A stretch of DNA of 64,000 nucleotides, taken from the NCBI RefSeq assembly GCF_014203735.1, contig NZ_JACHJQ010000005.1:434001-498000 (forward strand). Direction: 5' to 3'. A program made the translations under genes and the position numbers. Below the pieces are notes generated by a model. It saw only the letters and a program-made list of their open reading frames with translations, searched no databases and had not been told where the DNA came from. Every line of letters begins with the position of its first letter. The stretch's first letter is position 1. Shown here in pieces: positions 54,168-61,482 of this stretch. Source of the DNA: Actinophytocola algeriensis (GTDB taxonomy: Bacteria; Actinomycetota; Actinomycetes; Mycobacteriales; Pseudonocardiaceae).

Positions 54168-54464
54168 ATGAGCGATTTTCACGTTGATCCGGCTGAGCTG
54201 ACCCATGCGGCCGGCATGATCAGGAGCTCGGTGGCCCCCTCCGACGCCATGAACCTGAAGGCGGACGTGGAGGGCGGTAAGGCAGCCGGCGACGACGCGG
54301 TCACCGACGCGTTGACCGAGTTCGGCGCCGCCTGGCACCTGGCCGTGGACATCTTGCGACGCCGGTCCCGGTCGACCGCCACCGGCCTGGAGCACGCCGC
54401 CGCTGCCTACGTCGCCCACGACGAGGGTGCCAGGGCCGAACTGAAGGCCGCACGCCATGGCTGA
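54168..54464 (+). CDS. WXG100/ESX-like small protein (type C-like)
   Basis: 98 aa from the ATG at 54168. A two-helix layout with FHVDPAELTHAAGMIRSSVA, a short hinge near 30-40, and EFGAAWHLAVDILRRRSRST, like DUF2580/EspC-type secreted helical hairpins. The ribosome site is weak. Overlaps the next gene by 8 nt, so it is made together with the large WXG protein, its probable secretion partner. Confidence 0.75.
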   Translation: MSDFHVDPAELTHAAGMIRSSVAPSDAMNLKADVEGGKAAGDDAVTDALTEFGAAWHLAVDILRRRSRSTATGLEHAAAAYVAHDEGARAELKAARHG

Positions 54465-55866
54465 GCTCGGTACCACCACCGATCCCAAGGAACTGGTGCC
54501 CGGGGACGCGGCGGCGCTCCATGCCATCGCCGACAAGCTCACCACTCTGGCCGGCACGTTCGCCGATGTCGGCGCGGCACTGGGCGCCGTCCGGATGGAC
54601 AACTGGACCGGCAACGCCAGCGACATGTTCTGGGAGGCCTACGCCGCCGAGAAGCCGTCGTGGCAGCTGGGCAGCGACGCCATGACGTCGGTGGCGAGCA
54701 CCCTGTCCGCCCACGCGGACACCGTCGCCTGGGCCCAGGGGCAGGCACAGGAGGCGATCGAGCTCTACGAACAGGGCAGGCAGGCCACCCTCGACGCGAC
54801 CGCGGCGAACGCCGCCAAGCTCACCCCGGAGCCGGTTGCGGCGATCGATCCCGGCCAGGCGCTCCGCCAGCAGGCGCAGGAGACCCTGGACCGGGCCAGA
54901 GAACAGCTCAAGAGCGCCGGAGCGGCCAACGCCTCGGCCATCGCCGGGCAGGGCAGCCACGGCGTGAACGCGCCTGCGTGGCTGTCCGGGCCGGCCACCT
55001 ATGTTTCGAAGGCGGGCAACGGCACCATCACGGCGTCCAAGAAGTTCGACCTGAACGCGGGCCGCGAAGGCAGGACGAAGATCTCGTCGAGCTACCTGGA
55101 CATGGCCAAGAACGGCAGCGAGCGCTGGAAGAACATGGACAAGTGGGACTGGTCCACCTTCCGCAACGACGTCCTCGACACCTACACCAAGAAGGGCTTC
55201 GACTTCGCCGCCGACAAGAAGAACGCCCAGGAGGCCGCCAAGCTCCGCGGGGAGAAGTACCGCCAGGCACCGCCGGTGAGCGTCAAGATCGGGTCCGTCG
55301 GCACCGGGGACAAGTTCATGGTCGGCCCGAAGGTGGAAGGTGCCACCCAGGTCGGCGATGTGACGATGGCCGGGTCGGCGGAAGCGAAGGCCGGCGCCAA
55401 GGCCAACGCGTCGCTCTCGGCGGGGCTGGACGGTGTCAAGGGATCGGCCGCCGCCTCGGTGGGAGCGACCGCGCAGGCCCAGGGCAGCCTGGTCTCCGGC
55501 CCGGCCGAACTCAACGGCAAGGCCGAGGCGTTCGTCGGTGCGGAGGCAGGCGCCAACCTCTCCGCCGGCCCGACCGGGGTCACAGCCGGGGTCGACGCCT
55601 TTGCCGGCGCCCGGGTCGAGGGCTCGGTCAGCGCCGACGTCGGCGGTGTCGGCGCCGGGCTCAAGGGCGAGGCCTGGGCGGGCATCGGCGCGGAGGCCAA
55701 CGTGACCTTCGGCATGGACGAGGCCGGGAAGTTCCGTCTCGGCGGCGAGGCGGGCGTGGGGCTGGGGGTTGGTGCCAAACTGGGTGGTGAGATCGTCCTC
55801 GATCCCGCCGAGCTGACCAAGACGGCGACCGACGTGGCCAACACGATCGGCTCACTGTTCGACTGA
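54457..55866 (+). CDS. Large WXG-domain type VII substrate with Gly/Ala repeat C-terminus
   Basis: 469 aa. N-terminal WXG-type helical hairpin (about 10-125) with the turn motif RMDNWTGNASDMFWEAYAAE, then a long helix and linker. A charged middle (about 195-280: LDMAKNGSERWKNMDKWDWS) follows. The C-terminal 190 residues (about 275-460) are degenerate Gly/Ala repeats of alternating VxG/AxA type (AEAKAGAKANASLSAGLDGV; VGAEAGANLSAGPTGVTAG), which may form a beta-solenoid or glycine-zipper. No nuclease, ADP-ribosyl or deaminase toxin tail is seen. Overlaps the 98-aa partner by 8 nt; followed 12 bp later by the gene at 55879. Confidence 0.8.
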   Translation: MAELGTTTDPKELVPGDAAALHAIADKLTTLAGTFADVGAALGAVRMDNWTGNASDMFWEAYAAEKPSWQLGSDAMTSVASTLSAHADTVAWAQGQAQEAIELYEQGRQATLDATAANAAKLTPEPVAAIDPGQALRQQAQETLDRAREQLKSAGAANASAIAGQGSHGVNAPAWLSGPATYVSKAGNGTITASKKFDLNAGREGRTKISSSYLDMAKNGSERWKNMDKWDWSTFRNDVLDTYTKKGFDFAADKKNAQEAAKLRGEKYRQAPPVSVKIGSVGTGDKFMVGPKVEGATQVGDVTMAGSAEAKAGAKANASLSAGLDGVKGSAAASVGATAQAQGSLVSGPAELNGKAEAFVGAEAGANLSAGPTGVTAGVDAFAGARVEGSVSADVGGVGAGLKGEAWAGIGAEANVTFGMDEAGKFRLGGEAGVGLGVGAKLGGEIVLDPAELTKTATDVANTIGSLFD

Positions 55867-58952: not shown

Positions 58953-59097
58953 GTCTGGACCCTATCGAGGTCCGGTGGGTGGTGCATTGGCCGAGGGCGA
59001 AGCGGCCGCCGCGTGTCGTCGACTGTGGCTGGCTTGAGCGAGCGTGGTGTTACCTCGGCCTGGTCACGTGGTGACCGGCTTGGCTTACCGTCGCCGC

Positions 59098-61482
59098 ATG
59101 GCAACTCCGGCGGCGCCGAATGTGCGCGACGAGGATTTGTTTCCGGAGATACTGGCGCGCTTCGCCGCTGGCGACATGCCGTTCCTGCGACGGGCGCGGC
59201 GTCGTGCGCTGCGCACCCGGCCGTACGCCGGGTTGGCGGTGTTGCACAACGTACCGCTCACCGCCGAGACGATGTGCAAGATCGAGGTGCTCGTAGCGGG
59301 CGGGGCCGACCTCGTGGTCACTTCCCCGAGCTTCACGGAAGCCGACCCGCGGTCGGTCGCAGCTCTGGCGGCCGCTGGTGTCGAGTTCCGCATGGAGTAC
59401 CGCTTCTCCGAGGAGTTCGACGTCGTACTGGACTGCGGCGGTGAACTCCAGCCACTCGTGACACCACGGCTGGGCACCTGTGAGCTGACCAGAACCGGAA
59501 CCCTGCGCTACCGCGCCGCCAACCCCGCCTACCCGGTCATCGCGGTCGACGAGAGCCGGGTGAAGAACCTCGAGTCGTTGCTCGGCACAGGACGCGCGTT
59601 CGTACACGCCTTCCGACGTCTCGTGGACGAGCCGATCGACGGCAAGCCGTTCCTGGTCTTCGGTTACGGCAAGGTAGGAAAAGGTGTGGTGCGTGCTCTT
59701 GCCCCGCACACCGATCGCATCGGCGTCGTCGACACCGATCCCGGTGCGGTCGACGCGGCGAGGCTGGCCGGTTGCGACGCGATGCACGCCACCGAGGCCG
59801 ATCGCGTGGAAGCCTGGGCCAGACAGGCGTTCGCGGTGGTCACCGCGACCGGCGTGCCAGGGATCGTATCGTCAGGTTACGACGCCGGCCCGTTCCGCGG
59901 CGCGCACCTCGCGAACATGGGCGGCGAGGACGAGTTCGGCGAAGCGTTCACGACCGGTGACGTCCTGTACGGCAAGCGCCCGGTCAACTTCGCGCACAGC
60001 GATCCCCATACGATGCGCTACCTGGACCCGGTCTTCCACGCCCACAATCTGGGCATCGACCTGCTGGCCTGTGCGCAGCCGGGGCCCGGCGTCACACCGT
60101 TCCCGGCGTTCCTCGCAGACGAGATCGTCGACGCGTGGCAACGCGTGTTCGGGGAGCGGCTCGAAGACGGTGCCAACCCAGCTCGCGACACGAACCGTCC
60201 GGCGCCGCCGAGCCGCCGATGGGACGACGGCCTTCGGCACTGCGCGTCCCACTACGTCACCACCGCGCCGTTCACCGTCGGCGAGTCGCCTGAGTTCAGG
60301 CCGATGACCGAGAGCTCCGGCATGCTCGTCGCCGACCTGTTCGCCGCCATGCGACACGAACCGGGCAACCCGCTGGTGCGTGCGTCGTACCAGCAGTACA
60401 TCCGGGAGATCACCGAGCAGTACGAGTTCGCCGTCGCCGAGTTGGGACTGCGGGTCGAGCCGTGGCCGCACTCCGGCGAGCCCTACCGCGACAGCCGCCG
60501 GATGATCGAGGACGTCCGGCAGCGCAGGCACCTGTACTTCCTGACTACGCACGCCAGATGGGGCGAGGCGGGTACCGGGCACGTCGACCACCCGATGCTC
60601 AACCCGACCGGCATCGTGATCGGCGGTGTCGAACTGCTCGCCAACGACCTGTTCCGAGTGGTGCACGACGTGTTCGGGCACGCCAAGGAGGGGCACCAGT
60701 TCGGCCCGGTCGGCGAAGAGAAGGCCTGGCTCGCGCACCACGGCATGTTCTCCCCGCTGGCCCGGCCCGCGCTGACCGCGGAGACCCGCGGTCAGACCTG
60801 CTGGGCCTACTTCGGTGCGCACCTGCGCGGCCCCTCCGGAGCGCTGGTCGGCAAGGACGAGCCCGGCTGGGTGCCGGTGCCGCGGCGCCCGTTCGCCGAA
60901 CAGAAGGCCGGCCTGCTGCCTGCCGACGTCAGCGGCGTACGGCTGACCCACGACCCCGGGAGCGGTCACGTGCGAGCATGGCCGCTGACCGGCTGGCGTC
61001 CGGACACCCACCACGCACTGCGCACTGGCCGGCAGCCAACCGAGATCGACGGTCAGCTCGCCGACGCCTACCGGAACACCACCTTCCGTGCGCTGACGAC
61101 AGCCGGTCCGATCGACATCCATGTCGGACAGAGTTGTCCGGACCTGGATGCGCTACTGCGCCGCGAAAGCGTCTCCTGCTGGGCGTTCCTCACCGCCTGC
61201 AGCCCTGGCGGGCGCATCCTGCCCGCGGCGGAGAACCAACAGCGCCACCTCGCACTCCGGCGCCGCCTGCACGGTTCGGGTGTACCGGTTGTGCCGGGGC
61301 TCGGTATCGGTGTCGACCCGGACTGGCTGCCGGAGGACAGTGTGCTCGCAGTGGGACTCGACCGGTCGACCGCCGCGACCCTCGGCGCGGAGTTCGGACA
61401 GGACGCCATCGTGGTGGGCGACCTCGGTGCGGCCGCGGAGCTGCTGTGGTGCCGTACGCGAGCGGCAACTGGCGGCCAGTGA
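59098..61482 (+). CDS. Three-domain fusion: AdoHcyase-like, HDxFGH metal-site-like, DUF3293
   Basis: 794 aa from the ATG at 59098. No ribosome site is seen; TACCGT just upstream could be a -10 of a leaderless transcript. Residues 1-360 resemble the NAD-binding part of S-adenosylhomocysteine hydrolase: FGYGKVGKGVVRAL at 188-201, VVDTDPGAVDAARLAGCDAM, VVTATGVPGIVSS and LANMGGEDEFGEAF. Residues 400-615 are a domain known to me mainly from phage proteins of unassigned function: NDLFRVVHDVFGHAKEGHQF (His523, His528), then VGEEKAWLAHHGMFSPLARP and TAETRGQTCWAYFG. The H-x4-H with later Glu recalls the 2-His-1-carboxylate iron site of aromatic amino acid hydroxylases. Residues 655-785 are DUF3293 (HVGQSCPDLDALLRRE; EFGQDAIVVGDLGAAAEL). 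Possibly nucleoside or SAM-metabolite chemistry; not assignable. Confidence 0.75.
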   Translation: MATPAAPNVRDEDLFPEILARFAAGDMPFLRRARRRALRTRPYAGLAVLHNVPLTAETMCKIEVLVAGGADLVVTSPSFTEADPRSVAALAAAGVEFRMEYRFSEEFDVVLDCGGELQPLVTPRLGTCELTRTGTLRYRAANPAYPVIAVDESRVKNLESLLGTGRAFVHAFRRLVDEPIDGKPFLVFGYGKVGKGVVRALAPHTDRIGVVDTDPGAVDAARLAGCDAMHATEADRVEAWARQAFAVVTATGVPGIVSSGYDAGPFRGAHLANMGGEDEFGEAFTTGDVLYGKRPVNFAHSDPHTMRYLDPVFHAHNLGIDLLACAQPGPGVTPFPAFLADEIVDAWQRVFGERLEDGANPARDTNRPAPPSRRWDDGLRHCASHYVTTAPFTVGESPEFRPMTESSGMLVADLFAAMRHEPGNPLVRASYQQYIREITEQYEFAVAELGLRVEPWPHSGEPYRDSRRMIEDVRQRRHLYFLTTHARWGEAGTGHVDHPMLNPTGIVIGGVELLANDLFRVVHDVFGHAKEGHQFGPVGEEKAWLAHHGMFSPLARPALTAETRGQTCWAYFGAHLRGPSGALVGKDEPGWVPVPRRPFAEQKAGLLPADVSGVRLTHDPGSGHVRAWPLTGWRPDTHHALRTGRQPTEIDGQLADAYRNTTFRALTTAGPIDIHVGQSCPDLDALLRRESVSCWAFLTACSPGGRILPAAENQQRHLALRRRLHGSGVPVVPGLGIGVDPDWLPEDSVLAVGLDRSTAATLGAEFGQDAIVVGDLGAAAELLWCRTRAATGGQ

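Follow-up and report, generated by a model that had tools for sequence, protein, structure and literature searches.

A fused gene of Actinophytocola algeriensis and a recurring three-gene cassette as a possible module for an S-adenosylmethionine-derived metabolite

Introduction

A gene for a protein of 794 amino acids lies on the forward strand at 59098..61482 of a 64,000-nucleotide stretch of Actinophytocola algeriensis DNA (positions 434,001 to 498,000 of contig NZ_JACHJQ010000005.1; the window, to which all coordinates refer unless a locus is named). It begins with an ATG at 59098 and ends with a stop codon finishing at 61482, and an alternative in-frame start (GTG at 59044) would lengthen the product to 812 amino acids. 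Its product consists of a domain resembling S-adenosylhomocysteine (SAH) hydrolase (SAHH), a middle domain named here HDxFGH after its motif, and a DUF3293 domain. The gene is best understood as the collapsed form of a cassette whose parts are adjacent genes in other phyla, and it may encode, with a probability of about one half, a three-enzyme module for a metabolite derived from S-adenosylmethionine (SAM).

The triple-fusion gene

In the product, Pfam assigns residues 163-260 to AdoHcyase_NAD (E 9e-8), residues 698-771 to DUF3293 (E 2e-16) and no family to the middle, which matches PHROG 3170, a group of unknown function, over residues 431-569 (E 9e-17). The presence of three domains in a single 794-residue frame, noticed in a sequence-only reading that preceded this analysis, is thus borne out. 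A profile search found the HDxFGH domain in 19 of the 397 genomes of the source order, among which only the window gene joins all three domains. A chance assembly of the fusion is ruled out, since alignments match the domains one by one to separate genes of other phyla and the same genes adjoin one another in other genomes.

The three-gene cassette in other bacteria

The search for relatives was started from the middle domain aligned with six relatives. The genome loci considered are the best 80 of 126 confirmed relatives carrying HDxFGH, the viral loci are the best 80 of at least 577, and the six-frame products of the fetched loci were searched with the N- and C-terminal domains of the window protein. 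These domain-by-domain profile searches for neighbouring, unfused homologues were productive: a SAHH-like gene of the window's type adjoins the HDxFGH gene at 11 of the 80 genome loci (E 8e-79 to 3e-103), and the next-best SAHH matches at these 80 loci are ordinary SAHHs (E 6e-18 or worse). The 11 loci represent 10 organisms, L035 and L036 being from one isolate, and the hosts are Aquimarina, Chryseobacterium, Aureispira, Enterovibrio, Ruegeria, Pelagibius and an isolate of the BD1-7 clade. DUF3293 is adjacent to or fused with the cassette in ten of the 11, the search with the window domain having failed to find it among the six-frame products of the Chryseobacterium locus. In seven of these ten the order is SAHH-like, HDxFGH, DUF3293, which is the order of the fusion; in the three loci of Ruegeria and Pelagibius it is HDxFGH, DUF3293, SAHH-like. 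In the BD1-7 isolate (two loci), HDxFGH and DUF3293 are joined as one frame of 430 amino acids. The earlier description of the three families as normally seen apart is therefore too simple, as they recur together in ten of the 11 loci where SAHH-like and HDxFGH genes meet.

The 11 cassette rows cluster in a tree built from 83 HDxFGH domains, with support of 90/4 when the window is included and 98/79 for the other ten, so that the window's own placement is weakly supported. Inspection by eye of genes farther from the cassettes revealed none common to the loci, and no mobile or defence genes are shared in the flanks viewed. A comparison with PADLOC models gave no convincing match to the cassette: the window has none, and two cassette proteins reach only E 0.01 and 0.019.

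The HDxFGH domain and its putative metal site

The middle domain (about residues 373-622, 60214..60963, on the forward strand like all parts of the fused gene given below) was delimited by a profile that includes the window (300 bits), and AlphaFold2 models residues 395-640 with a mean predicted local distance difference test score (pLDDT) of 94.8. It is a family of its own, lacking from the Pfam copy searched. A Pfam scan of 87 members met 11 families at E<=0.1, all at chance level, with no real family among them, and sequence profiles of the PDB gave nothing informative. The 169 domain matches comprise 111 non-redundant ones listed, from which 87 rows (window included) and then 83 were used; L002 (genome G034) and L046 (Goodfellowiella), identical over 3,804 bases, are the same DNA.

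The motif HDVFGH occupies residues 523-528 (60664..60681), and its His523 and His528, candidate metal ligands, occur in 83 of 83 rows. The same holds for His547 (60736..60738), for Glu562 (60781..60783), a candidate third metal ligand, and for Gln566, while Glu540 (60715..60717) is found in 82 of 83 rows and Glu541 in 41 of 83. The search patterns contained NDxFR(A/V/I)VHD or FR(A/V/I)VHD(V/A/Y)(F/I), and the conservation of their letters, His523 included, is partly by construction because those letters were searched for; His528, Glu540, His547, Glu562 and Gln566 lie outside the patterns. The His/Glu set also recurs in relatives found by profile or BLAST, at 19 of 20 loci (window included; L221 is partial) and in three annotated phages. 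The sequence-only reading had combined the two histidines with the Glu pair of GEEKAW. Both histidines and Glu540 are upheld by the alignment, but Glu541 varies, so the pair Glu540-Glu541 was rejected as ligands and Glu562 is the better third ligand. A divergent branch of the family carries an HDxxAH motif (L024, L025, L044, L045, L049-L056, L059, L060, L069, L072, L083, L084); it is mostly from Microbacterium, Arthrobacter and Oerskovia, and L024 and L025 are linear plasmids.

Aromatic amino acid hydroxylases bear an HD-x-F-G-H motif, and the second helix beyond it carries a conserved Glu. In profile-profile comparison with them, the HDxFGH domain scores 36.8 with all 14 loci (maximum of 60 column shuffles, 21.1) and 37.3 with 12 loci (maximum of 60 shuffles, 26.3), both sets having been made without a filter for an HxxxxH-type motif. 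A 9-row set scores 43.3 against maxima of 27.6 in 100 shuffles, 20.4 among 30 other families and 14.0 with the reversed profile. The score varies with the rows chosen (30.8 for 11 full-length frames, 34.0 for the same number trimmed, 43.3 for the nine), and the 11- and 9-row sets, picked by the HxxxxH-type filter, which dropped L188, L189 and L196, are biased towards the motif. On this sequence comparison the domain may work like the hydroxylases, with membership in their family unproven.

Two results weigh against a module that includes an iron enzyme. A Foldseek search of the PDB with the HDxFGH model gave no meaningful fold match (best E 2.2 among 50 of 99 matches listed), and no aromatic amino acid hydroxylase is among those listed. 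Masking the HDxFGH motif lowers the 9-row score from 43.3 to 17.5, which is background, so that the link rests on one motif. Among viral predicted structures, 21 match the domain at E<=0.001, those listed all being phage or unnamed proteins. The domain might accordingly be no metal oxygenase but a different hydrolase or transferase, its motif having an independent origin. The missing PDB fold match and the effect of masking favour this explanation, but the unmasked match exceeds every one of 60 shuffles (14 loci) as well as all 100 shuffles and all 30 other families (nine rows), and the motif-masked alignment keeps its register; the explanation is therefore regarded as somewhat doubtful. As to the hydroxylase-like iron site proposed earlier, the profile score of 36.8 speaks for it and the masked comparison of the 9-row set and the listed PDB matches do not; structure prediction likewise yielded a confident model of the domain but no hydroxylase among the matches listed.

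The SAHH-like domain

The N-terminal domain (about residues 8-358, 59119..60171; 516 bits with a profile of 11 rows including the window) is 40-47% identical to ten cassette proteins and 24-27% identical to four SAHHs, among them the host's own. SAHH homology spans about residues 21-276, and the NCBIfam ahcY model covers residues 21-273 with 72 bits against a cut-off of 498. The NAD-binding motif G-Y-G-K-V-G-K-G (residues 189-196, 59662..59685) has its glycines invariant in the alignments, and Lys156 (59563..59565), which aligns with SAHH Lys186 in a comparison with four SAHHs, is the SAHH catalytic residue retained. When five cassette proteins are compared with the four SAHHs, the glycines of the Rossmann NAD site and Lys186 are kept. 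Of the further catalytic positions of SAHH, His55 is replaced by Pro, Asp131 by Cys, Glu156 by Ile or Leu, Asp190 by Glu and His301 by Gly or Ala, and the position of Asn191 is taken by variable residues. Since most hydrolase residues are gone, the reading of the domain as a working SAH hydrolase was rejected. The Pro, Cys and Glu at the positions of His55, Asp131 and Asp190 are invariant in 11 of 11 cassette rows, a pattern more in keeping with a new reaction than with decay. By these alignments the domain is most likely derived from SAHH without being one: SAHH ancestry and the NAD site, as in the AdoHcyase-like Rossmann enzyme recognised earlier, hold, whereas hydrolysis of SAH itself is unlikely. 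The host has a separate SAHH-like gene (502 amino acids) with SAHH motifs kept.

In 246 genomes of the order to which the Aquimarina genome belongs, the SAHH-like family was seen in that genome alone. One relative (L232:4374-7013, reverse strand) lies in a frame of 879 amino acids together with PAS, histidine-kinase and receiver-like sequence, recognised by eye, and another (within L234:5191-8506) stands directly behind UPF0261 and PEP-hydrolase-like genes (Pfam).

DUF3293 and the SAM lyases

The C-terminal domain (residues 649-794, 61042..61479) is assigned to DUF3293 by Pfam and looks like a relative of SAM lyases, judged from alignments and a predicted structure. Its AlphaFold2 model (pLDDT 94.4) has, after an N-terminal extension, the order beta-alpha-beta-beta-alpha-beta. 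The first five PDB matches in Foldseek are 6znb, a phage SAM lyase, and four chains of 7ock (probability 0.97-0.99). The latter entry is a complex of methionine adenosyltransferase with a SAMase, and the matched chains are taken to be the SAMase because they are 147-152 residues long. A DUF3293 profile aligned with 13 T3-type SAMases scores 31.9 over 93 columns, the best of 100 column shuffles being 23.9, and pairs Asn713, Glu746 and Gln768 with Asn27, Glu68 and Gln94 of the T3 type. Glu746 (61333..61335), the putative counterpart of Glu68 of T3 SAMase and Glu69 of Svi3-3, is Glu in 23 of 24 DUF3293 rows and Asp in one; Gln768 (61399..61401), in the loop that joins helix 2 to strand 4 (the B-loop position), is Gln in 24 of 24. 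This member set leaves out L239 and L242, for which no clean frame was picked. Known SAM lyases form trimers whose active site lies at the contact of the subunits, and they turn SAM into 5'-methylthioadenosine and homoserine lactone. One study reports that SAM lyases rescue an E. coli ilvA deletion strain, that changes of Svi3-3 Glu69 lower activity 1500- to 4500-fold, that none of Svi3-3 E69Q, Svi3-3 E69A and T3 E68Q rescued the test strain, and that T3 E68Q retained 20-30% activity in vitro (PMC7877911). In another, the B-loop Gln is given as Q104 in SAM lyase and Q108 in SAM-AMP lyase, this Gln and the Glu being the two residues structurally conserved between the two enzymes (PMC12255297). 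Pfam S-AdoMet_lyase (PF23780) matches seven of the 24 DUF3293 members at E<=1 (best 2e-6), and in the phage protein L160 the DUF3293 and S-AdoMet_lyase matches fall on the same stretch. Because DUF3293 looks SAM-lyase-like by Foldseek ranks, profile score and the Pfam matches of its members, the earlier guess that SAM-derived compounds are involved gains weight. In the T3 record itself, the gene matching the T3 SAM lyase (L250:302-760) is labelled 'SAM-dependent methyltransferase'.

Several observations have to be set on the other side, together with those given above for HDxFGH. The Foldseek E-values for SAM lyases are weak (0.0067-0.18, none below 0.001) and the TM-scores low (0.31-0.48), and a search with PDB sequence profiles found no SAM lyases for DUF3293, only chance-level matches, mostly to retroviral capsid. 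The window domain has no S-AdoMet_lyase match at E<=1 in Pfam, three of ten cassette DUF3293 domains match the model weakly (E 0.0021, 0.0066 and 0.21, all below the Pfam cut-off), and the match of L160 (27.1 bits) is just below the cut-off of 28. Against the T3 enzyme alone, HMMER gives 6.1 bits in register and hhalign a score of 17.0 off register. At residue 702, which is Asn in 22 of 24 rows, the window protein carries Ser. In the open-licence literature of PubMed Central (PMC), no report of activity was found for DUF3293 or HDxFGH proteins, nor any paper on DUF3293, PF11697 or the HDxFGH motif. Most DUF3293 genes seem solitary, as partners lie within 1.5 kb only at the cassette locus L243 among 14 gammaproteobacterial loci, and the contexts of the stand-alone genes at these loci gave no informative partner. 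Similarly, five further SAHH-like genes from 229 gammaproteobacterial genomes, one of them continued by sensor-kinase-like sequence, have neither partner in the fetched DNA. A Pfam search of 274 gammaproteobacterial genomes for S-AdoMet_lyase gave one weak match, under the cut-off.

The SAHH-like and DUF3293 domains might form a sensor instead of a pathway, the former and the PII-like latter binding NAD and SAM- or SAH-type ligands without turnover and thereby regulating the HDxFGH enzyme. Such a function would agree with the loss of most SAHH catalytic residues and with the PAS- and kinase-associated SAHH-like relative, and SAM lyases are placed in the PII superfamily, which includes signalling proteins (PMC12255297). 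A pure binder, however, might not need the SAM-lyase catalytic Glu (23/24) and Gln (24/24), which are kept, and a sensor is considered unlikely.

Phage contexts and a second gene cluster

The fusion protein matches 201 of 50,697 phage records, of which 187 are Mycobacterium phages, and the 20 phage matches listed are all to the middle domain, which agrees with its earlier description as known chiefly from proteins of phages and mobile elements. HDxFGH and DUF3293 share one large frame in three of the 80 viral frames (L157, L160 and L186) and in one genome contig (L038). The frame of L186 also contains the ADP-ribosyltransferase domain of polyvalent proteins, and that of L038 contains the same domain just below the Pfam cut-off. 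These frames and the abundance of phage matches would suit a SAM-depleting conflict module, that is, a domesticated phage counter-restriction protein or a bacterial defence that destroys SAM, but this is quite unlikely, as PADLOC gives no convincing match, inspection by eye showed no mobile or defence genes common to the cassette flanks viewed, the HDxFGH tree sets the cassette rows apart as a group, and SAM destruction needs no NAD enzyme.

A separate HDxFGH clade (support 100/100, 21 rows), with members in Actinomycetota, Paraburkholderia and a gammaproteobacterium, lies in a different gene neighbourhood. In the fetched DNA of 82 loci (the 80 genome loci with L002 and L003, L002 repeating L046), a SufS-family pyridoxal phosphate (PLP) enzyme occurs at 33, a UbiE-type methyltransferase at 30, a cystathionine-gamma-synthase-type enzyme at 30, a homocysteine S-methyltransferase at 22 and a full SAHH at six. 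L061 and L100, counted in the second clade, have no SufS-type gene. At L047:5902-12289, L087:5136-10947, L086:2715-10822 and similar loci, HDxFGH is accompanied by a SufS-like PLP enzyme, a methyltransferase, a cystathionine-gamma-synthase-like enzyme and a homocysteine S-methyltransferase, and some loci add SAHH, adenosine deaminase, an HxlR regulator or an MFS-like frame. This looks like an undescribed sulfur- or SAM-dependent biosynthetic cluster, on which no paper was found in the open-licence PMC literature. By the neighbours in the cassette and in the second cluster, both cellular contexts of HDxFGH centre on SAM, SAH, homocysteine and cysteine.

Surroundings of the fused gene

In the host genome of 9.7 Mb, the frames beside the fused gene encode a PCuAC-type copper chaperone, a LuxR-type response regulator, an MPAB/Lcp oxygenase and a molybdopterin-binding domain, which show no link to the gene, and a Pfam scan of seven flanking frames found no SAM enzyme. 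Elsewhere in the window (54457-55866), a frame of 469 amino acids combines a putative signal domain for type VII secretion (Pfam PF21725) with a repeat-like tail behind it that is rich in Gly and Ala.

Proposed pathway and its significance

In the three-enzyme module, DUF3293 would split SAM or a closely related adenosyl-sulfonium compound, giving one piece with 5'-thioadenosine and another of the homoserine-lactone type, as its family, predicted fold and catalytic residues suggest. The SAHH-derived domain with its bound NAD might then oxidise an alcohol on the adenosyl- or homoserine-like product, a weaker assignment that draws on ancestry. The weakest step, suggested by the conserved site, is that of HDxFGH as a metal enzyme with His523, His528 and Glu562 as ligands, probably an iron oxygenase working on the amino-acid portion in the way that aromatic amino acid hydroxylases work on their substrates. 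Tentatively, these steps may belong to a so far undescribed route of SAM metabolism, present in Bacteroidota, Proteobacteria and an actinomycete. It would combine a cellular SAM lyase with a repurposed SAHH and a metal oxygenase of a new family to make a small molecule, in this actinomycete with one polypeptide. The SAM lyase is already known as a kind of enzyme; judged from sequence and models, a cellular, cassette-borne form with these partners would be new.

DUF3293 thereby gains a testable function, that of a protein of ordinary bacteria which is probably related to the phage SAM lyases. The middle domain defines a protein family, and both are linked to a repurposed SAHH in a recurring cassette. 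If the assignment as a SAM lyase is true, there are bacteria that cleave SAM deliberately, with partners that hint at further processing of the product. The single fused gene is a convenient handle on the pathway.

Comparison with known systems

The large polyvalent phage proteins and PHROG 3170 share the HDxFGH domain, and a few also bear DUF3293; they differ in that a search of the 80 viral loci turned up no SAHH-like domain of the window's family. The biopterin-dependent aromatic amino acid hydroxylases (PF00351) resemble the middle domain in the HD-x-F-G-H motif and a downstream conserved Glu, whereas that domain falls outside Biopterin_H, which is not one of the 11 Pfam families that the 87 members reach at E<=0.1, has no hydroxylase among the listed Foldseek matches, and owes its likeness to the motif. 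The N-terminal domain is like AhcY in sequence homology, the NAD motif and the equivalent of Lys186, and unlike it in that most catalytic positions are replaced and the C-terminal region is shorter. DUF3293 is like the phage SAM lyases (T3 SAMase, Svi3-3) and SAM-AMP lyase in its predicted ferredoxin-type order of strands and helices, for which they are the closest PDB folds, and in the Glu that closes the T-loop and the Gln in the B-loop. In contrast to the phage SAM lyases, it misses the Pfam PF23780 model in the window protein, is cellular, is extended at its N-terminus by two helices and two strands, and is coupled in the window to two further domains.

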